DNA of 10,826 nucleotides, taken from NCBI GenBank assembly GCA_003156615.1, contig PMHI01000080.1, forward strand, positions 609 through 11,434, in the 5' to 3' direction. Position numbers and translations under genes: made by a program. Positions 1 to 7,976 of this stretch are shown piece by piece (position 1 is the first letter of the stretch; every line of letters starts with the position of its first letter). This DNA comes from Acidobacteriaceae bacterium (GTDB taxonomy: Bacteria > Acidobacteriota > Terriglobia > Terriglobales > SbA1). The notes beneath the pieces were generated by a model that made no database searches, was not told where the DNA came from, and worked only from the letters and a program-made list of their open reading frames with translations.

Positions 1-930
1 CGTTTGATCCAGGCAGCCTGCGAACGTGGACTAGAGCGGATCAGCGAGCAGCTTCTTGTGATCATCTCGGAAGAGCGCGAGGCACTTCAACGGCCGATCG
101 AGGAATCGGAAACCCGCATTGCCGTAATGAAGCAGACCATTGGCGATGCCGAGCGTTCGATGAGGGAGCTCGGGTTTCTGTTCATGGCTGAACAACAGCA
201 TATTTCAGATATGTTCGTCGATCGTCATAAGACATTTCTCGCACGCGTGTTGCCGCAGGCGCACAAGCAGTTCGATGTTTCACTGCAATCGATATCTGGC
301 TGGCTCGGTCCATCGTATCGGCGACGTACTTTCCACGAGGCGCAAGAACTGGCACGCCGTCATGTCATGCCATGGCTGAAGCCCGAGCAGGAGAAAGCAG
401 AGAACGAATACCGGCGTGTAGCATTGCGGTTCGTAGACATGGCCAACGAGTTTCTAAAGAAACTTGCGAATGCCGGCATTCCCGAGTTGGCCCGGATGCC
501 CCACGCGCTCGATCCGGAACGCGGATTTCGCGTACGCTCTGAATTCACTTTTTATGAGTTCAGAGACGTCGCGCAGCCTGCCTCACCGCTGCGCTGGCTC
601 GCCGACCTGATTCTTGGACTAGTTGGCGCCCGGTGGGTTATTAGGAACGAGGCCCAAGAGTTTCTCACCAGGCTGCTCGAAACCAACAGCACTCGCGTGC
701 AGAGCGACGTTCTCAACCGGATTCGGGAGAGCCGAGGGAAGTTAGAAGCCGAGATTCGCAGACTGCTTCATGAAGTGAGCAGGATTGCGGAACAGGCCCT
801 AGTCCGCGCCCGAAAATTAATGGAAGACGGCGAGCCTGCGGTTCAGGCGGAATTGAGTCGCTTGCATGGGTTGGAACACGAAGTGACTGCCCTCCGCGGA
901 TCCACACAGCTCAATGCATCGCGGGTGTGA
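1..930 (+). CDS. C-terminal part of a dynamin-like GTPase (5' end outside window)
   Basis: The frame is open from the first base, so the gene begins upstream; the TTG at 4 is not a credible start. The visible 309 residues are mostly charged amphipathic helix. Residues 40-160 and 215-295 (counted from the TTG) have coiled-coil character, and a hydrophobic stretch lies at about 195-213 (PLRWLADLILGLVGARWVI). A helical stalk, a short membrane-interacting segment and a second long helix before the C-terminus is the tail layout of bacterial dynamin-family proteins. The GTPase domain would lie upstream and cannot be checked. The product would bind and remodel membrane. The gene ends 13 bases from the convergent MutS-like operon. 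A second dynamin-like gene lies at 5160-6851; bacterial dynamin-like proteins are often encoded in pairs. It could instead be another coiled-coil membrane protein. Confidence 0.7.
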   Translation, partial: RLIQAACERGLERISEQLLVIISEEREALQRPIEESETRIAVMKQTIGDAERSMRELGFLFMAEQQHISDMFVDRHKTFLARVLPQAHKQFDVSLQSISGWLGPSYRRRTFHEAQELARRHVMPWLKPEQEKAENEYRRVALRFVDMANEFLKKLANAGIPELARMPHALDPERGFRVRSEFTFYEFRDVAQPASPLRWLADLILGLVGARWVIRNEAQEFLTRLLETNSTRVQSDVLNRIRESRGKLEAEIRRLLHEVSRIAEQALVRARKLMEDGEPAVQAELSRLHGLEHEVTALRGSTQLNASRV

Positions 931-943
931 ATCCGACTCCGAT

Positions 944-2539
944 TCAACTGCTCATCGTTGGTCCGGCAGCAACCGTCTGATCCTCAACTCCAAATACCTT
1001 GTTGTACAAGTCTTGGCCGTAACTGGTCTGGAGGGGCTCACCTTCTGCCAGCTTGAAAGTTCGCGTTCCATCCGCTTCTCGTTCGGCACGCAGGAAAATG
1101 GCACTTTTGTCCTTTTCGTTGAAAAAGCCCCGCGCAAATTCGTACAAGTGGGTCACGTAGAAGACCTTCATCCCCTTTTCCAATAAAGCGCGAACAATCT
1201 GTGTCGCGATTTCTGAGCCTTCTCGCTCGTTTGTCGCTGCGAATGATTCATTGAAGAGCAAGATCGAATTCGGCACAAGGTGCTCGACGATGTCGCTCAT
1301 TCTCGCGAGTTCCTCATCAAATTTCCCGCTCTTCATGCTGGTGTCTTCTTCACGCTTGTAGTGAGTAAACAGGGCAGAGCAGATTTCAGCCTTGAAGTCG
1401 TCGGCCCCAACGAACAAGCCGCATTGCATCATCAACTGCGCAAGCCCGATGCTCCGCAGGAAAGTCGTTTTCCCACCCTGGTTCGCGCCGGTGATGATCA
1501 CCAAGTTCTTTTGTTTCGCATGAAGGGCATTCCCGACGACGCCGTGATTCATCGTGAGGCAGAGGGTGACATCGTACAATCCGCTGAACTCATGGCTGCG
1601 TTCGCCCGATGGCACCGGGGTTGGAAAAGCAATAGGCATTCGGTGCGATGCCAGTTCGGTATGTAGATTGAGGCAGCCCACGTAAAACGCCAATTCTGTC
1701 CGCAGCGCCTTGAAGAAGCCGAGCACATGATCGGAGGATTGAGTCAGCGCAAGCGCAACGCGGGAGATCCCTCGGTTCCGCATATCCGATAAGATCCGCG
1801 CACCTGCCTCGTCGCGGGGGTCGAGACGGAAACTGTAGGAAACAGGTCCCTTGCCAAGAAGGCGGTCGAGCCAGGTCTGCTCCTTACCGTGCGCCTTGCG
1901 CAGCATGTAGTGGATGCCTTCGTTGCTGTTGCCAAGTTCAGCGCTTAATAGCGCGCCCTTGCGGAATTTCAATTCTTTCAAATGGCTCTTTATCGTTTCG
2001 AGGAATTGCTCACTCAACTCTTTCTTGAGCATTGCAAAGAGTGACCTGAAACCCTCGGACTCGAAGTTGCTGTCGTTCTCTTCGGCGATAATCCTAACCT
2101 TCCGGAGCACATTCAGAAAGGTTTCCATCAAGTCCACAGAGCCGTAGAGCATCGAACTGGGATAGCTACCGGACAGGCTCCACCACTGTCTCCTCGTTTC
2201 TTCCGCCACGGCTGTCATGAGGTCGTAGAGTCCCCTCACTGCGACAGGGTTCTTCAAGCAGTCTCTCAGGATCGCTTGCCTGTAAAGGATTGTGTCGAAG
2301 TCGTTTCGCACCCCGGAGAGAAGCGCTTGCTGCGCCACCTCAAGCACGAACTCGTCGGCGCCTGCCATGGCGCGCAGCAACGTATTCAGTTCCAAGTCTT
2401 TCGTCAACTCAGGCGCGTTCAACAGCACGGCTCGCAGAAGAGTATCCCGATCCACCTCCTGTCGCCGAACATATCTATTCTGTGACGCGGGCCGGTACAG
2501 CTCGAAATCCCTCTCCCGATGCATCAGCAGAACTTTCAT
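944..2539 (-). CDS. MutS-like ATPase, second of a paralogous pair
   Basis: This 531-residue protein has a MutS-type helical core/lever region (about 30-300; note [15 protein letters not shown] near 81-95) followed by the MutS ABC ATPase domain. Walker A is [10 protein letters not shown] (350-359), a signature-like segment is at about 396-416 ([14 protein letters not shown]), Walker B is SILLFNE (425-431), and the H-loop is VTH with His464. There is no N-terminal mismatch-recognition domain with its Phe-x-Glu motif and no C-terminal Smr nuclease, so it is neither MutS nor MutS2 proper. The Walker B acidic pair is Asn-Glu instead of Asp-Glu; the catalytic Glu431 is kept. The start ATG overlaps the stop of the preceding MutS-like gene as ATGA (2536-2539), implying coupled translation and probably a heterodimer. 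Its DNA substrate is unknown. Control is probably by the fluoride riboswitch at the head of the operon. Confidence 0.88.
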
Positions 2540-4071
2540 ACTTCGATCCGCTCCTTGAGCAAGCTGTATGTGACCCGGTACTTCTCGGCGATCGCGTGCG
2601 CATAGGCGAGTCCGTCGGCTCGTCGTCGTTCTAATTTATAGGTGCGATCTGCTGGGTTCTGCGGGTCGACAGTGCTGACGACGCTGACCGTTTTCTCGTT
2701 GAATGATGCCAATTCATCAAGAAAAGTCACCCAGACCCCCAACAGGTCCAGATCAGTAATCTGAGCCATGACTTTCTTGCTCAGAAACACAGCGTCCTGC
2801 ACCGTCGTCGAGGAGAAGATTTCGTTCATGATGACGATACTGTTCGGGGTCGCGTGGTCGAGGATTTGGCGAATTCGAACGAGATCGTTGTGCAGCTTGC
2901 CGCGGAGATTCGTGATGTTCTCTTCGCGTTCGAAATCTGCGAAAAGGTGGTCGTAGAGAAATAGGCGGGCCTCTTTACCTGGAACTGGGCAGCCCAGACA
3001 GCCCAGATAATGCAATTGGCCGAACATGCGGGCGAAGGTGGTCTTGCCGCCCTGGTTCGGACCGGAAACGACGAAGATGCGCTCCGAGCCAACCAGAGAG
3101 AAATCATTTAGGACGACCGCAGCGTTTTCCCGAATCAGCTTGCCGCCCAGTGCGATATCGAAAGCGTCGCGCGTTCCTATTTCTTTTGAAGTTCGTGAGA
3201 GCACTGGCAAGCAGAAGGTCAGGCCCGCTGGCCGGAACTTGTCGATGTACGTGAGGTAGGCAACGTAGAAATGGATCTCTCGATCAAAGCGCGCGATCGT
3301 TTCGTCGAGATAATCTGTATGCGCTGCACTGAATTCATCGAGTGCGCGAAATGCGTCGGGATACAACAGTGCGACACCATCCAGAATGTCGGCCTGGATG
3401 TGATTCATGCCATCGCGGATCGGGACCTTGAGTTGGTAATCAATCGCCGTTTCCCGCCTGAATTTGCTAAAAGTTTCTTCTACGGCGGCGCTGTAGTCGC
3501 TCTCTCCGTCATAGTGACGAACTGTGATGGAATCGTCCTTCAAGAGGAGGCCGTACCTGACGCTAGACAGATCCAAGCGCAGCTTTTCAGTTTCTGTAGC
3601 GAGATTCCTGAATGAGGAGGACCCTACGTAGTCTGTCAGGTATCTGCGGAATGCCTGCAAGCCGCGCGACTCCAAATGGAGTTCACCTAGGTGCTGTAAG
3701 AGCCGCTCGACTGCTTGGCAGTAGATCTCGACCGCCCCGAGGAAGCCGCGCTCAATTGCGTACTTGAAGTAGAGATCCTTCGCTTGCTTAAGACGCTCGC
3801 GCATGGCGCGCATTTGCGCTGAGAACGATTTGACGGCCTCCATCAGACGGGCGCACTCGAAATCCCGCATGACCTCTTGACGGTACGAGATCGCATCGAG
3901 CTCATGCAGTCGCACGTAGAAAAAAGGGGCGAGATTGTAATCCTTCCAACCTTCTGTAATTGCTTGGACGACCTGGCCGAGATTGAGATCTTTGAAGAAT
4001 TCAGGCGATTCCTCGCTGTCGACATTCCTGCCGCTCTCCAGATTCTCAAACAGAATGCTGTGGAACTCCAT
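2536..4071 (-). CDS. MutS-like ATPase, first of a paralogous pair
   Basis: This is a 511-residue MutS-like ATPase, paralogous to its downstream neighbour. The helical lever region spans about 30-300, with [11 protein letters not shown] near 61-71 matching the paralog. The ATPase domain has Walker [11 protein letters not shown] (336-345) and Walker B SIVIMNE (411-417), again with Asn before the catalytic Glu417. The H-loop reads VTF, with Phe450 where MutS proteins have His; the partner keeps His, so the two ATP sites would not be equivalent. Mismatch-recognition and Smr domains are absent. The ATG at 4071 is preferred over one at 4101: AAAGGAG lies at 4084-4090, 12 bases upstream, directly after the stop of the ATPase gene, and the extra 10 residues ([10 protein letters not shown]) read like translated Shine-Dalgarno sequence. 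The gene sits 19 bases after its upstream neighbour and overlaps the next by 4. Confidence 0.88.
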
Positions 4072-4090
4072 CGTCTCTTTAATCTCCTTT

Positions 4091-4876
4091 CTACAACGCA
4101 TTCTCTGCGTGCCAGCCGAGCCGAAAATCGATGTACAGAGGCGAGGTTTTGACGTATTCGCCGAGACGATATTTCGGATGAACTGCCATTTGCATCATTC
4201 TTACGATTGCACCGGGCGAACCTTGGCCCAGATCCACCACACGCTCGATAAATTCGGGGAGATTCGTTGCCCGAAGCTGGGTTCGTCGGGCAACCTCCTC
4301 AGCAAACCGGATGGCCTCTGCGTGCGTAAAATTCGTCAGCCTCATACGCTCGGAGCGCAGTGCGAATATCGGAGTCAGAAAGCCCAAGTCCTCCATGTGA
4401 GTTGAGCGCGTGATTGCTACCACGGGGGTGCCTCCGTAGAACATGAGGTCGCGGGTGTCCGCGGAAAGCGCCGCGGCCGGACCGTGCAAGTGGTCGAGCA
4501 CCACGAGGTACGTCCCGCGTCGTACTGCGTCAAGCACAATCCCGCGCAGGGAGACTGCTGATTTGCTCTTGACCGCCTGCGGATTCCGTAACCAACGACG
4601 GACGGAGCGATCCCGAGAAGCTAGGAGAGCAAGGGCAAGACTTTGAAAAACCACCAGGGGCGAGGTTGCGTCGGGACAATACAGCACTTCGGGGAAGACC
4701 TGCATTACGCGGCGAAGCAGGAACGTCTTTCCGGAGCCGCTAGATCCGTGTAGCACGAAAGATTCACGGGCCGAAAGGCGCTCTCCTAGCTCCGCGATCT
4801 CCTTGGCGCGCCCAAAAACAAATTCGCTACTTTCGAAGGTTTCCGCACAGGATGGAAGGAATTGCCTCGCGGTCAT
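4091..4876 (-). CDS. AAA-type P-loop ATPase, first gene of the MutS-like operon
   Basis: This is a 261-residue protein with one AAA/STAND-like ATPase domain. A motif resembling the N-terminal box of ORC/Cdc6-like ATPases ([12 protein letters not shown], 19-30) precedes P-loop GSSGSGKT (44-51), Walker [10 protein letters not shown] (123-131), a sensor-1-like strand VVAITRS (152-158) and a lid helix beginning near GSPGAIVRM (219-227). The residue after the Walker B Asp128 is His, not the usual acidic residue, so hydrolysis may be slow or need a partner. It probably loads or regulates the two MutS-like proteins encoded 19 bases downstream; that role is inferred. The frame is open to an ATG at 4963, but that codon lies inside the riboswitch pseudoknot strand, and the extra 29 residues translate the aptamer end and the expression platform. 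The ATG at 4876 (MTARQFL) is therefore chosen, although its Shine-Dalgarno sequence is poor. Confidence 0.8.
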
Positions 4877-4931
4877 GCCTTCACGTTCAGGCAGTCGCCG
4901 GGGAGCGGGGGCGGTCCTTATTTTTTGGGTA

Positions 4932-4960
4932 ACTCCTGACACGGAATCCTCGTCAGGAGT
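4932..4960 (-). promoter_or_regulatory. Expression-platform hairpin overlapping the first riboswitch
   Basis: The RNA ACUCCUGAC (4960 to 4952) has a perfect 9-base complement GUCAGGAGU (4940 to 4932) after an 11-nt loop. The 5' arm is the pseudoknot strand of the fluoride aptamer, so hairpin and aptamer exclude each other, as in known fluoride switches. The following bases are UACCCAAAAAA, with no U-tract, so this is not a standard intrinsic terminator. The 3' arm contains AGGAG, which the hairpin would bury. A translational or Rho-linked mechanism is possible. The hairpin is seen; the mechanism is inferred. Confidence 0.6.
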
Positions 4961-5016
4961 CATCAGCCATCCATCGCGATCCGAAGGACGGCGGTTAGCG
5001 GTGGAACTCCTTCACC
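4952..5016 (-). ncRNA. Fluoride riboswitch (crcB motif), copy 1, leader of the AAA/MutS-like operon
   Basis: Read on the minus strand, the RNA starts with GGUGAAGGAGUUCCACC (5' hairpin). It continues through the linker CUAACCGCC and a second hairpin GCCGUCC/GGAUGGC (4986-4992 with 4966-4972; seven pairs including one G-U), and ends with CUGAUGACUCCUGAC. The loop AGGAGU (5006-5011) is complementary to ACUCCU (4955-4960), giving the pseudoknot. This order of elements and the conserved AACCGC and GAUGACUCCU blocks are those of the fluoride riboswitch, which senses F- chelated by Mg2+ and usually raises expression. It begins about 9 nt after the predicted transcription start. The second copy at 6973-7036 has different hairpin bases that still pair. 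The 5' hairpin carries one extra C compared with copy 2. Confidence 0.9.
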
Positions 5017-5031
5017 GGTAACGACTCTTTC

Positions 5032-5060
5032 AGTCTTGAGCAGAAGCTGCCTCTTGTCAA
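5032..5060 (-). promoter_or_regulatory. Probable sigma-70 promoter of the AAA/MutS-like operon
   Basis: On the minus strand a perfect -35 box TTGACA (5055-5060) is followed by a 17-base spacer and AAGACT (5032-5037) in the -10 position. The -10 box is weak, matching three of six consensus bases. Transcription would begin near 5025, placing the aptamer's first hairpin about 9 nt from the RNA 5' end, the same geometry as at the second riboswitch. The promoter lies in the 143 bases between the stop of the dynamin-like gene (5160) and the riboswitch, so the operon is transcribed independently of that gene. Confidence 0.55.
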
Positions 5061-5159
5061 GGCGGGAAGCGTCAGCAGGGTATCTTCTTAGCGATCTCAA
5101 CCCAATTGTCGTCCAAAAAGCATGACTCCCGTAGCTAATTACGAAAACTAGGAAAATAC

Positions 5160-6851
5160 CTACATGATGTCCCTTACCGTGAAGACCGCGTTGACACTCC
5201 GGTGACCGACGAGCAGCTGAAGCGCCTGAAGGTAGGAATTATGTTCCTCGGAACTCGCCAGATCCCGCCGCAGGGCGTCGTGTTTAATGGCGTAGCGCTG
5301 CATGTCCTCTGCAATTCGTTCCATAAGTGCCGCCTCACGACATAAGAGGAGCTTGCGAACTGACTCGCTTTTCGTGCGGCGTAGCACTAACTGCAAGTGG
5401 GGGAGACAAAGAGCTGATAGGGGGAGCTTATCGGGTTCCGGACTTTCGCTGGTTCTGCTGACAATTGAGGCTACTACCTGATCTTCTGTCGCCCAGCGAA
5501 CCTGGCAGGCAGGACAGTGCGATTCAAGCAGCGGAGACGAGAAGTCGTTAGATTCTTGAGTACCATTTGCTGCCAGATGACGCAGCCTCTCGGCCATTTG
5601 GTTCAGAAGTGCCGGGTATGCCGTGCAAACACCGCGGGGAGAAGCGACTTGCTCGTAGTGCCACGTGTGTAATGGACAAAATCCTCCGTCTTTGGCGTGC
5701 TGTTCCTGACTTCGGGGCCGGGTACTGAGATCGTATTGATATCTCGCTAGAAACTTCATGGTCTTCCCCATGACTGCTTTACAAACTTCGCAGCTGCTAA
5801 CATTTTCGAGCCGGAGCACAGCACCCGACCGTGACTCAAACGACGTTTCGTTCAGTGCTGCCGACGCTTCGGGGACGTTTGGGTCGATTTGCTGCCGCAA
5901 GCCATGAAGTTTGGGAATCAAGCTGTCAGTTTGCTGATCCAGCAAGGCTTGCATTTCGGCTAGCGTGCGATCACACATCGAAGACAAGAACATTTGTGCG
6001 CGGTTGTTAGCCAAGAAATCCACTAGCGCGTTCTCAAAGTCCAGTAGGCCGCTGTCGCGCAGTTTCTCTGCATCGCCCACCTGTTTTGCGGCCAATCCAT
6101 CTCTGGCTGAGACCGAAAACGGTGCGACTGCCTTCTCCCCAAGCACATTGTGAGCAGTCTTCTGGACGTACTGAATTATTTCTGCCCGTGAATCAGGAGG
6201 CACAGTGTCCTGCTTATTAATGACAATGAACATGGCACGCACTGAGGTCAATGCATAGTGGAGAAATCGCATTTCATCTTCCGAGAGCGGGCTCTCGTAG
6301 CTGGTGACAAGCACCAGCACGTCGATTTCTGGAATGAATTTTTCCGTCGTCTTCGTGTTTTCGAAGATCGCGGAGCCGAGACCGGGAGTGTCTACGAAGA
6401 AGAATCCCCGGCGAAGAATTTCTGCTGGCAACTGAATCTCCGCCGAGTGAATCCGTTTTGCGTTTCCTGGATTTCCTTTCTCCGTTACGTATTCCGGCAA
6501 TTCTTGAAGTGTAGCCTCTCCCCTCAGCCTCGACCCTTCGTAGTTGAGCAGAACTCTCTCGCTGGTGCCGTAACGAACGTATGTAATCACGGAGGTGAGC
6601 GGAACAATCCCGGTTGGCAGACGGTCCATTCCGAGTACTGCGTTCATCAAGGACGATTTCCCGCGGCTGAACCGCCCAGCCACGACGACCGTGAACCGGT
6701 CTTCGGCCAAGCGAGTCAGCAGATCACGCCACGGCCGTTCCGCATCATAACGCCGGTTTGAATCCTTCTCTCGTTCGGAAGCGATGAGTTGCCCGGACCG
6801 GATCAGTTCGGCCAGTTCGAATTTGATTTGCTCGTATGTTTTCAAGTCCAT
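5160..6851 (-). CDS. Dynamin-like GTPase fused to a Cys/His-rich (probably zinc-binding) domain
   Basis: This 563-residue protein has a full dynamin-type GTPase domain: G1 GRFSRGKSS (59-67), a G2 Thr in PLTSV (84-88), G3 DTPG (154-157), G4 NKQD (212-215) and a G5-like SAR (248-250). A short helical region (about 270-345) follows. The C-terminus has two matching cysteine/histidine units: CEVC (354-357) with CPLH (392-395), then CPAC (446-449) with CLPH (482-485). Each unit could hold one zinc; the pattern resembles DUF6062-type domains, from memory. No clear membrane helix is seen. The start ATG has GGAG nine bases upstream (6861-6864). The gene has its own promoter and a fluoride riboswitch about 120 bases upstream. 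GTP binding is strongly supported; a role in membrane remodelling or scaffolding is inferred from the family. Confidence 0.88.
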   Translation of the reverse strand: MDLKTYEQIKFELAELIRSGQLIASEREKDSNRRYDAERPWRDLLTRLAEDRFTVVVAGRFSRGKSSLMNAVLGMDRLPTGIVPLTSVITYVRYGTSERVLLNYEGSRLRGEATLQELPEYVTEKGNPGNAKRIHSAEIQLPAEILRRGFFFVDTPGLGSAIFENTKTTEKFIPEIDVLVLVTSYESPLSEDEMRFLHYALTSVRAMFIVINKQDTVPPDSRAEIIQYVQKTAHNVLGEKAVAPFSVSARDGLAAKQVGDAEKLRDSGLLDFENALVDFLANNRAQMFLSSMCDRTLAEMQALLDQQTDSLIPKLHGLRQQIDPNVPEASAALNETSFESRSGAVLRLENVSSCEVCKAVMGKTMKFLARYQYDLSTRPRSQEQHAKDGGFCPLHTWHYEQVASPRGVCTAYPALLNQMAERLRHLAANGTQESNDFSSPLLESHCPACQVRWATEDQVVASIVSRTSESPEPDKLPLSALCLPHLQLVLRRTKSESVRKLLLCREAALMERIAEDMQRYAIKHDALRRDLASSEEHNSYLQALQLLVGHRSVNAVFTVRDIM

Positions 6852-6858
6852 GGTTTAA

Positions 6859-6864
6859 GACTCC
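6859..6864 (-). promoter_or_regulatory. Ribosome binding site of the dynamin-like gene, complementary to the riboswitch
   Basis: The RNA GGAGUC contains the Shine-Dalgarno GGAG, nine bases before the ATG at 6851. All six bases are complementary to GACUCC (6977-6982), the pseudoknot strand of the upstream fluoride aptamer. Without ligand that strand could pair here and block the ribosome; fluoride binding would free the site. The complementarity is seen; the switch is inferred, and the two segments are about 110 nt apart. Confidence 0.4.
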
Positions 6865-6960
6865 GTGTAGTCTCGACCATCGCACGAGGCAGTTCCTCGG
6901 TTTGTAGCGTCGACCACGTCAAACTTTCAGCAGGGAATCCGTGACAGACATGGCTCTGCA

Positions 6961-6974
6961 ACAGGTTTCCCTGT
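6961..6974 (-). promoter_or_regulatory. GAAA-capped hairpin after the second riboswitch
   Basis: The RNA ACAGG-GAAA-CCUGU forms five perfect pairs closed by a GNRA tetraloop. It can be lengthened by CUG/CAG across a two-base bulge, which takes bases just after the pseudoknot strand. There is no following U-tract, so it is not a plain terminator. It may be the structured edge of the expression platform. Confidence 0.4.
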
Positions 6975-7036
6975 CAGGAGTCATCATCTGTCCCGATCAA
7001 GAACTGGAACAGCGGTTTGCGGTGAACTCCTTCACC
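6973..7036 (-). ncRNA. Fluoride riboswitch (crcB motif), copy 2, leader of the dynamin-like GTPase gene
   Basis: The minus-strand RNA has the 5' hairpin GGUGAAGGAGUUCACC (7021-7036), the linker GCAAACCGC, and a second hairpin CUGUUCC/GGGACAG (7006-7012 with 6988-6994; seven pairs, one U-G). The pseudoknot strand GAUGACUCCUGAC follows, whose ACUCCU (6976-6981) complements the loop AGGAGU (7026-7031). These are the defining elements of the fluoride riboswitch. Conserved bases match copy 1 while the second hairpin arms have changed on both sides and kept pairing, which is covariation supporting an RNA and not a DNA repeat. It lies about 10 nt after a predicted start of transcription and 120 bases before the GTPase start codon. 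Confidence 0.9.
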
Positions 7037-7052
7037 TTGCGGCTTTTCCATA

Positions 7053-7058
7053 ATTATA
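7053..7058 (-). promoter_or_regulatory. -10 box of the dynamin-like gene promoter
   Basis: A perfect TATAAT is present on the minus strand. No good TTGACA lies at the proper distance; TTCTAT (7077-7082, spacer 18) is the nearest, with three matches. Transcription would start near 7046, about 10 nt before the riboswitch, as at the operon promoter. Confidence 0.55.
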
Positions 7059-7203
7059 AGGCGACGAAGGCAAGGAATAGAAAAAGACCTGGAAAAGTGA
7101 ATTGAAGGCCACGAGACCAGCCGCATATTCCGTATCGCCTCGCGCTCTCACGGCTCAATTGAGTCTGAGGGCTTTCGTTTTCCTTCCTACACAGGAGTGG
7201 TCT

Positions 7204-7500
7204 TCAAACTAGCAACACGTCGCCCGTTCTTCGAAGGCCGAGCTTGGCGGGAGGACCGTAATGAAAACCCAGGCCTAGACATTGATTGGTCTGGGTTCGC
7301 AGTCCGGCGCAAAATAGTCCCAACAGGAAAACGCTGGCGGCGAATACGAGCGTATGCGTCTCGAAATGACTTGCCACCAACGCGCCAAGCGCCGCTCCAA
7401 CTGCTGTTCCGACAAAGCGTTGCCAAGACACTGCGAGTGTTGCGCCAAGAGATGACTGCGTGATCACCATAGTTGTGATTGGCGCCCAATTTTCTGGGTA
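7204..7500 (-). pseudogene. Remnant of a FUSC-family (aromatic acid exporter-like) membrane protein
   Basis: The minus-strand frame contains WAPITTMVITQSSLGATL and RFVGTAVGAALGALVASHF, then a hydrophobic stretch ending LLGLFCAGLR. This is the conserved transmembrane block of FUSC/YccS-type transporters. Homology starts abruptly at about 7488, with no membrane helices or start before it, and fades after about 7297, where the family's next helix appears only in pieces across frames before the stop at 7204. Intact family members are several hundred residues long; this is roughly 65 recognisable residues. It is a broken fragment, truncated at the 5' end by the junction with the dipeptidase gene and probably frameshifted at the 3' end. 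Confidence 0.6.
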
Positions 7501-7976
7501 CGCCCGTATACACCCAGGCACGGGCGTTCCTGCAGCGGCCAGCGGCACAAGCATTGCTTCGCGCCCATCGCGAACTCAAGGCTCAAGGATACGGTTTGAT
7601 CATTCACGATGGCTACCGGCCGTGGTACGTGACGAAAATCTTCTGGGACGCCACGCCCGACGACAAGAAGAGTTTTGTCGCCGATCCGGCAGAGGGTTCC
7701 AAGCATAACCGCGGATGCGCCGTGGACCTGTCGTTATACGATTTGAAAACGGCCAAGGAAGTGAAGATGCCCAGTGGCTACGACGAAATGACTAACCGCG
7801 CATTTGAAGACTACGACGGTGGCACGCCCGAGGAGGGCGCTCGCCGTGCTCTTCTGCGCCGAGCCATGGAGAAGCAGGATTTCAAGGTTAATCCCAAGGA
7901 GTGGTGGCACTTCGACTATAAGGATTGGAAACAATATCCAATCCTGAATGTGAAGTTCGAAGATCTCGGACAGTAG
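7479..7976 (+). CDS. VanX/DdpX-like D-alanyl-D-alanine dipeptidase, N-terminus missing
   Basis: This is a peptidase M15 domain of the VanX/DdpX group, zinc enzymes that split D-Ala-D-Ala. In the 165-residue frame from TTG 7479, the active-site residues are all visible: Arg47 (GYRPW), zinc ligands His76 and Asp83 (SKHNRGCAVDLSL), catalytic Glu141 and zinc ligand His144 (EWWH). Homology begins at NFLG (residue 4), a point that lies about 25 residues inside VanX. An in-frame TGA (7476-7478) directly precedes the TTG, so no leader, signal peptide or first strand can be encoded in frame. There is no Shine-Dalgarno sequence. The gene is either a recent 5'-truncated pseudogene or a residual expressed domain. 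It converges with the L,D-transpeptidase gene 15 bases away; both act on peptidoglycan stem peptides. Confidence 0.75.
   Translation: MAPNFLGTPVYTQARAFLQRPAAQALLRAHRELKAQGYGLIIHDGYRPWYVTKIFWDATPDDKKSFVADPAEGSKHNRGCAVDLSLYDLKTAKEVKMPSGYDEMTNRAFEDYDGGTPEEGARRALLRRAMEKQDFKVNPKEWWHFDYKDWKQYPILNVKFEDLGQ

Follow-up and report, generated by a model that had tools for sequence, protein, structure and literature searches.

Resistance of bacteria to fluoride is known so far mainly as export of the ion and as the supply of extra copies of the enzymes that fluoride inhibits. Several kinds of genes have been described behind the fluoride riboswitch (Rfam family RF01734). MutS genes and formate hydrogenlyase were reported downstream of this RNA in 2010 (PMC2864571), and a 2024 review names exporters, antiporters, pyrophosphatase, enolase and others as targets (PMC11139923), as far as the accessible text of these papers goes. 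The island GI3 of Enterobacter cloacae FRM carries crcB, enolase and pyrophosphatase under a fluoride riboswitch, and resistance was shown by knock-out; the accessible part of that report describes six genes and one riboswitch, and mentions no GTPase, dynamin or MutS (PMC5533749). Here we analyze a stretch of 10,826 nucleotides (the window) from an Acidobacteriaceae bacterium (contig PMHI01000080.1, positions 609 to 11,434), in which a fluoride riboswitch precedes a gene for a dynamin-like GTPase. Our search of titles and abstract starts, which did not cover the target table of Baker et al. 2012, found no dynamin or GTPase target of fluoride riboswitches. A search of the same depth found no on-topic paper for fluoride with bacterial dynamin or for the fluoride riboswitch with cyclopropane.

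The window and related genomes resemble the described RF01734 regulons (crcB, CLC-F, enolase, pyrophosphatase, mutS, formate hydrogenlyase) in the aptamer class and its placement in the 5' leader. Genes for crcB, enolase, pyrophosphatase and MutS-domain proteins also occur in the aptamer-rich gene clusters found here, which we call islands, and the first three of these are shared with GI3. The islands differ from the regulons, so far as those are described in the accessible text, by adding three subfamilies of dynamin-like GTPases, a cyclopropane synthase, a HEAT protein, an Hsp70-like protein and pyruvate kinase (PMC2864571, PMC11139923), and one metagenome-assembled genome holds as many as 21 aptamers. 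We consider it more likely than not that the element in the window is a fluoride ON-switch for a dynamin-like GTPase, proposed to act on the membrane, within a dedicated regulon of the fluoride response that Acidobacteriota show most clearly.

A fluoride riboswitch in the leader of the GTPase gene

The window was scanned against Rfam at E up to 1, and only two matches were found, both to RF01734. The two aptamers and the GTPase gene are as follows.

7045..6968, minus strand: fluoride riboswitch aptamer ahead of the dynamin-like GTPase gene (RF01734, 38.0 bits, cut-off 34)
6851..5160, minus strand: dynamin-like GTPase DYN1, 563 amino acids, with a G domain and a C-terminal helical domain (Dynamin_N, 88.7 bits)
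5025..4947, minus strand: first fluoride riboswitch aptamer, heading the AAA-MutS-MutS genes (RF01734, 40.3 bits)

A first-pass annotation, made from the letters alone, had placed a second aptamer at 6973..7036, and the Rfam scan bore this out with the match at 7045..6968, which is over the cut-off, has an E-value of 1e-07 and covers model positions 1-64, that is, the full RF01734 model. The ATG of the GTPase gene lies 116 nt from the end of the aptamer match on the same strand, which places the aptamer in the 5' leader of the gene, and the list of open reading frames (ORFs, minimum 50 amino acids) holds no same-strand ORF within this gap. Read in the alignment, the complementary pseudoknot strands are intact (GGAGU in the loop, ACUCC at the 3' end), and at one near-invariant position a C is replaced by A. 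The same substitution was seen in 2 of the 32 aptamers of one alignment (the window and L034) and, in a separate alignment, in the aptamer of the GTPase gene of G001, a Candidatus Sulfotelmatobacter metagenome-assembled genome (Acidobacteriota, Terriglobia). The leaders of the window and G001 GTPase genes can be aligned with 141 of 216 ungapped columns identical; kept between the two are the unbroken aptamer core, the hairpin region and CGGAG...CCATGG.

Association of the GTPase with the riboswitch in related genomes

We sampled 399 genomes from the class of G001. The RF01734 counts across this sample are lower bounds, with 12 candidates scored per genome (G001 has 12 there and 21 when fully scored). 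RF01734 was matched in 247 of the 399 genomes at E up to 0.001, and in 232 the match exceeded the cut-off; the window GTPase was matched in 63 at E up to 1e-25. Among the GTPase-positive genomes 62 of 63 had an RF01734 match, compared with 185 of the 336 GTPase-negative genomes (Fisher 1.6e-13), although this and the other p-values overstate the evidence because related species are non-independent samples. Three or more matches occurred in 31 genomes, all of them GTPase-positive, and GTPase-negative genomes never had more than two (5.8e-29). The sole GTPase-positive genome without an RF01734 match, G183, has a weak aptamer before the GTPase (25.2 bits with our own covariance model R1). The MutS-like gene (E up to 1e-40) was found in 25 of 398 genomes, and all 25 were GTPase-positive. 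Thus, riboswitch control of a dynamin-like GTPase, as first proposed for the window, is matched by an association that recurs in many related genomes, and the possibility that relatives lack it did not hold.

Aptamers and GTPases on individual contigs

At the contig level 53 of the 63 GTPase-positive genomes, all but ten, were covered by scanning dynamin-bearing pieces with R1. This model was built partly from both window aptamers, from those of G001-G006 and from class aptamers, which match it by construction; the Rfam results are independent of it. An aptamer was present on an examined dynamin-bearing piece in 52 of the 53 genomes, the exception being G196. In the first 45 genomes, a same-strand aptamer lay upstream of the GTPase match within 6 kb in 40, within 3 kb in 34 and within 1 kb in 13. 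A single 5.2-kb piece, G126:C577, also carried no aptamer. No aptamer precedes DYN1 on its own strand in G251 or G194, where the piece ends near the gene, and in G215 the dynamin contig has an aptamer, with none upstream on the same strand.

For the subfamily counts we used the window and 50 contig pieces of relatives, 51 in all, which together carry 142 aptamers (R1 matches with E no higher than 0.0088, among them weak ones). These counts are lowered by the simple ORF caller, which in some places, such as G179:C45, retained an antisense frame instead of the true gene. The GTPases fell into three main subfamilies, DYN1 (that of the window), DYN2 and DYN3, and 7 others. DYN3, a protein of about 700 amino acids, had an aptamer at most 400 nt upstream in 19 of 23 cases, compared with 28 of 318 ORFs outside the named families (6.7e-15). 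DYN1 stood in an aptamer-headed gene run, judged by gene spacing only, in 20 of 30 cases versus 57 of 345 (1.1e-8). Some pieces had been chosen partly for their aptamers, and a recount without these and without the window gave 17 of 20 versus 11 of 196 for DYN3 directly behind an aptamer and 18 of 25 versus 27 of 214 for DYN1 in a run.

Outside the class, the phylum of G005 and G006 (L006 Verrucomicrobiia) had a GTPase match in five of 194 genomes in each of two near-identical searches, and the class of G003 (Trebonia, Actinomycetota) had one in 7 of 197. An aptamer over the Rfam cut-off was found just upstream of the GTPase in G415 and G559, and upstream on the same strand in G612; G005 has an island-like cluster. 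On the examined pieces of the distant dynamins of G469, G513, G696 and G763, and of the second one of G003 (C652), there was no aptamer. None lay just upstream in G624 (a weak match on the other strand) or in G714 (same strand, 4.4 kb upstream), and in G610 the aptamer is divergent from the GTPase.

A candidate promoter and a possible mode of switching

The sequence elements that may control the two window operons are listed below.

7058..7053, minus strand: TATAAT, candidate -10 box, 16 nt before the first G of the aptamer (sequence)
6977..6982, minus strand: GACTCC, 3' pseudoknot strand of the GTPase-gene aptamer, complementary to GGAGTC (sequence; putative pairing)
6864..6859, minus strand: GGAGTC, likely ribosome-binding site of the GTPase gene, with 9 nt between GGAG and ATG (sequence)
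4932..4960, minus strand: hairpin ACTCCTGACG...GTGTCAGGAGT, competing with the pseudoknot of the first aptamer (10-bp outer stem, minimum-energy fold)

The GTPase gene had been credited with a TATAAT promoter of its own. This is the sole exact TATAAT in the window, both strands considered. A search of 4800-7300 by consensus yielded no promoter that has a -35 box, and we regard the element as a plausible promoter of the gene. Matches to at least five of the six TATAAT positions were found upstream of 68 of the 142 aptamers, mostly 6-12 nt before the aptamer, versus 32.0 expected from shuffles; exact TATAAT was seen 5 times versus 2.0 expected.

In transcriptional fluoride riboswitches the pseudoknot competes with a downstream stem, according to the accessible text of PMC13273304. 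Hairpins could be analyzed for 137 of the 142 aptamers. An exact complement of the five-base pseudoknot strand occurred at most 45 nt downstream in 57 of the 137 (6.8 expected), and the strand was paired downstream in the minimum-energy fold in 68 (31.3 expected). The MutS operon of the window has such a competitor, the 10-bp hairpin listed above. In the DYN3 leaders of G350 and G374 the part of competing strand falls to GGAGGAG, immediately ahead of the ATG, a sign that these genes may be controlled at the level of translation. The complementarity of GGAGTC at 6864-6859 to the GACTCC strand is weak evidence of the same kind for the window GTPase, because the pseudoknot strand always resembles an anti-Shine-Dalgarno sequence. 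Intrinsic terminators were considered as the expression platform and rejected, the only one found between 4800 and 7300 being on the other strand. Without fluoride, the 3' strand of the pseudoknot would pair with a downstream strand, either in the competitor hairpin or at the ribosome-binding site. Binding of Mg-fluoride would allow the pseudoknot to form and the gene to be expressed, so that the element would act as an ON-switch.

The GTPase protein

The window GTPase matches Pfam Dynamin_N (PF00350) well above the cut-off of 27 bits and has the P-loop, DTPG and NKxD motifs of the G domain. Invariant in a 47-sequence alignment are G59 R60 F61 G64 K65 S66, D154-G157, and N212 K213 D215. The best fold matches of its predicted model (m6696ead0eedc), from a structural alignment of residues 1-338 only, were Fzo1, mitofusin 1 and 2, IniA and BDLP, and the model has a helical bundle beside the G domain, as in BDLP and mitofusin. 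It thus resembles BDLP, IniA, DynA, LeoA and the mitofusins in its dynamin G domain and neighboring helices, but differs from them by a Cys/His C-terminal half and by the lack of a visible membrane segment. The protein is under every NCBIfam cut-off.

The C-terminal domain has two CxxC and two CxxH motifs, and all four are present in 27 of 30 DYN1 ORFs; G152 is short of one CxxH, and one or all of the motifs are absent in G158 and G274, whose ORFs are truncated at contig ends. This half shows a weak likeness to DUF6062, under the cut-off (E 0.011). Folded alone from 4 sequences, the domain reached a mean predicted local distance difference test score of 61.1, too low for a fold search. It also exists as a separate small protein of the islands (hhalign probability 95, E 4e-8). 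We propose that the Cys/His domain probably binds zinc and recruits the GTPase or a partner. The small protein, represented by L126:8664-9263 in cluster c15, is about 190-230 amino acids long, and the four members inspected each carry two CxxC and two CxxH motifs. It resembles the C-terminal domain of the window GTPase and often stands beside CrcB and DUF190; one of two such proteins scanned had no DUF6062 match.

Contents of the fluoride islands

Fully scored, G001 has 21 RF01734 matches, 16 of them over the cut-off. Its aptamers (L101-L106) lie on four contigs (C96, C306, C78 and C158), several in back-to-back divergent pairs. The gene order of the window is shared by G001: an aptamer, the GTPase and further genes, then an aptamer, AAA, MutS, MutS and a convergent second GTPase.

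One representative of each island family was scanned. Families repeated behind or near aptamers were enolase, a calcineurin-type phosphatase, cyclopropane-fatty-acid synthase, a HEAT-repeat protein, an MFS transporter, CrcB, DUF190/P-II, pyrophosphatase, S-adenosylmethionine synthetase (MetK) and a DnaB-like helicase. Also repeated there was a Nuo/Hyf-like set (NuoH, NuoK-like, NuoL/N, 49+30 kDa, NuoB), probably the formate hydrogenlyase of the earlier work. In G374 and G350 an aptamer is followed by the phosphatase, cyclopropane synthase, HEAT and DYN1, and in G382 by enolase, DYN3, the Cys/His protein, DUF190 and DYN2. Near the aptamers of G001 there are also a pyruvate kinase (L101:11278-12828), a YkoP-domain protein, a universal stress protein, an Hsp70-like protein with tetratricopeptide repeats (L103:5428-7866) and a UvrD-like helicase (L103:7875-9107). 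A cyclopropane-fatty-acid synthase (L119:9941-11221) stands in aptamer-headed runs with a GTPase, a possible membrane-hardening response to hydrogen fluoride (HF).

Dedicated function or replacement of inhibited enzymes

Fluoride-metal complexes block phosphoryl-transfer enzymes, and the islands might simply supply extra or tolerant copies of such enzymes, including the GTPases, the MutS and AAA ATPases and the helicases. For comparison we took ten island genomes and ten genomes that lack the GTPase and have a single RF01734 match each. Enolase fits this explanation: in 10 of 10 island genomes it occurred on an island contig as well as elsewhere, though partly in fragments in G001 and G242. 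Each of the ten non-island genomes had a single full match, joined in two of them by a partial one (E 1e-4 to 5e-4). Pyruvate kinase, pyrophosphatase, MetK, the Hsp70-like protein and the helicases behind or near aptamers fit as well.

The GTPases show another pattern. Dynamin_N matches below E 1e-20 numbered 3-5 in each island genome, 34 in total, and all 34 were on aptamer-bearing contigs. In the ten non-island genomes, a set chosen as GTPase-negative, the best Dynamin_N match had an E-value of 7e-6, in frames of about 200-530 amino acids. Weak matches over the Pfam cut-off occurred in 20 of the 20 compared genomes and in 12 of 14 controls, by eye mostly in frames of Era/Der size, so that the family match alone does not separate island from non-island genomes. 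We looked for a housekeeping dynamin that the island genes might back up, and no strong copy was seen off the aptamer-bearing contigs of the ten island genomes. The GTPases are therefore probably not back-up copies, and the lack of a housekeeping counterpart counts against replacement, which needs something to replace; as an account of the GTPases we consider it unlikely. The distribution instead argues for a GTPase function that would be needed only with fluoride islands.

Other genes of the window

The remaining genes of interest lie downstream of the first aptamer and at the window edge.

4091..4876, minus strand: AAA/STAND-type ATPase, 261 amino acids from the ATG at 4876 (AAA_16 and NB-ARC matches)
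2536..4101, minus strand: MutS-domain-V ATPase A (MutS_V, 61.0 bits, cut-off 30.2)
944..2539, minus strand: MutS-domain-V ATPase B (MutS_V, 73.4 bits, cut-off 30.2)
1..930, plus strand: second dynamin-like GTPase, of DYN2 type, only its C-terminal part lying inside the window (grouped with the dynamin family by clustering)

The ORF of the AAA ATPase opens at 4963, inside the first aptamer. Its true start is probably at 4876, which gives a length close to the 262 amino acids of the G001 relative. The ORF at 1..930, DYN2 by clustering, has the same position as a full-length GTPase of G001:C306; no Pfam GTPase domain was found in it, and that domain would lie beyond the window edge. The genes in the 3' third of the window, for an M15 peptidase, YkuD, TetR and a short-chain dehydrogenase, look unrelated. 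A short ORF at 7554-7204 on the minus strand, with a partial FUSC_2 match, overlaps the start of the M15 dipeptidase ORF (7479-7976, plus strand), and either may be truncated.

The two MutS-domain proteins had been called a MutS-like set that fluoride triggers together with the GTPase. MutS-domain genes do partly accompany the GTPase, but domain V is the only part of MutS that Pfam detects: neither protein had a match to MutS_I to MutS_IV (mismatch-binding, connector) at E up to 0.1. PDB matches of the protein at 2536-4101 are confined to residues 312-516. With only domain V matched, a role in DNA repair is unsupported and was set aside. The pair is like the KamC reactivase ATPases and MutS2 in its MutS domain V ATPase, with local profile matches, but unlike them it is below all cut-offs (74.9 and 36.3 bits for the KamC family, cut-off 300) and has no matched mismatch-binding domain. 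The proteins at 944-4101 may be reactivases rather than repair proteins.

The MutS and AAA ATPases, the Hsp70-like protein and the GTPases could together release enzymes trapped by fluoride, as a reactivation or chaperone system in which the GTPase would do mechanical work away from membranes. The KamC matches, the confinement of MutS-like genes to GTPase-positive genomes and the lack of a hydrophobic segment in the window GTPase are consistent with this. However, 38 of the 63 GTPase-positive genomes had no MutS-like match at E 1e-40, which suggests that the GTPase does not need a MutS-like protein, and the fold match of the GTPase is to membrane dynamins. We regard this explanation as quite unlikely.

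Discussion

What can be read directly from the genomes is the aptamer, its place before the gene, and the recurrence of aptamer and GTPase in islands that hold known fluoride-resistance genes. On this basis the regulatory link between aptamer and GTPase is strongly supported, and the GTPase is very probably regulated by fluoride. We propose that it would work on the cell membrane as a soluble dynamin with a fold of the mitofusin/BDLP/IniA class. Together with the cyclopropane-fatty-acid synthase and the Nuo/Hyf-like complex, it would keep the membrane working while HF leaks in.

Several observations weigh against a fluoride switch for a membrane-acting GTPase as we propose it. Besides the non-independence of the samples and the assignment of operons by spacing, the subfamily of the window had an aptamer directly upstream in only 3 of 28 cases (1 of 23 in the recount), and no more than 10 of 22 DYN2 genes belonged to a run headed by an aptamer (0.002). 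The GTPase that usually stands directly behind an aptamer is that of the sister subfamily DYN3. As DYN1 is seldom directly behind an aptamer yet usually in an aptamer-headed run, the window is, judged from gene order, a minority arrangement of a general aptamer-GTPase association. A 60-nt fold of the window GTPase leader showed no short perfect competitor hairpin, and the switching mode is least clear for this gene. No CrcB, enolase or pyrophosphatase match was found among ten window ORFs scanned, the window ending inside the DYN2 gene. The first-pass annotation had suggested a membrane-acting protein, and the hydropathy of the window GTPase stayed below 1.6 in every 19-residue stretch, in a scan that is blind to amphipathic elements. 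A direct action of metal-fluoride complexes on GTPases, also raised there, would be a further, hypothetical link. We hold a membrane role to be nearly balanced, with the scales tipped slightly against it.

It might also be that the aptamer at 6968-7045 is decayed and non-functional and that the GTPase is expressed independently of fluoride. The A at the near-invariant C position, a score below that of many relatives and the missing -35 box would agree with this, but the score is still above the Rfam cut-off, the same substitution recurs in the aptamers of L034 and the G001 GTPase, and the leader has kept its core unbroken in the alignment with G001; decay is thus very unlikely. That the GTPase belongs to a phage-defense module near fluoride switches by chance is scarcely credible and was set aside. 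Its PADLOC matches to LeoA and LeoBC (E 7.5e-16 and 1e-6) are local only. NB-ARC/STAND models do match the AAA ATPase, but the link with aptamers and the surrounding fluoride genes are too regular for this, and the non-dynamin proteins among eight scanned had no PADLOC match better than E 0.001.

A fluoride-responsive, dynamin-like GTPase would, as far as the searched literature shows, be a new target class for a known riboswitch and enlarge its regulon. More tentatively, the three GTPases, the cyclopropane-fatty-acid synthase, the HEAT protein and the Cys/His adaptor may form a fluoride-induced membrane-remodeling machine, under up to about 20 riboswitches, that seals or reshapes the membrane against HF. 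If so, this machine would be a second line of fluoride defense besides export. A GTPase family that is tied to the fluoride switch and has no housekeeping copy in the sampled genomes would mean that cells need something else under fluoride. It would give a concrete function to an uncharacterized dynamin family and to the Cys/His domain, and would extend the fluoride regulon. The islands, which in a single metagenome-assembled genome carry 21 aptamers, may serve as a natural list of the cellular targets of fluoride.
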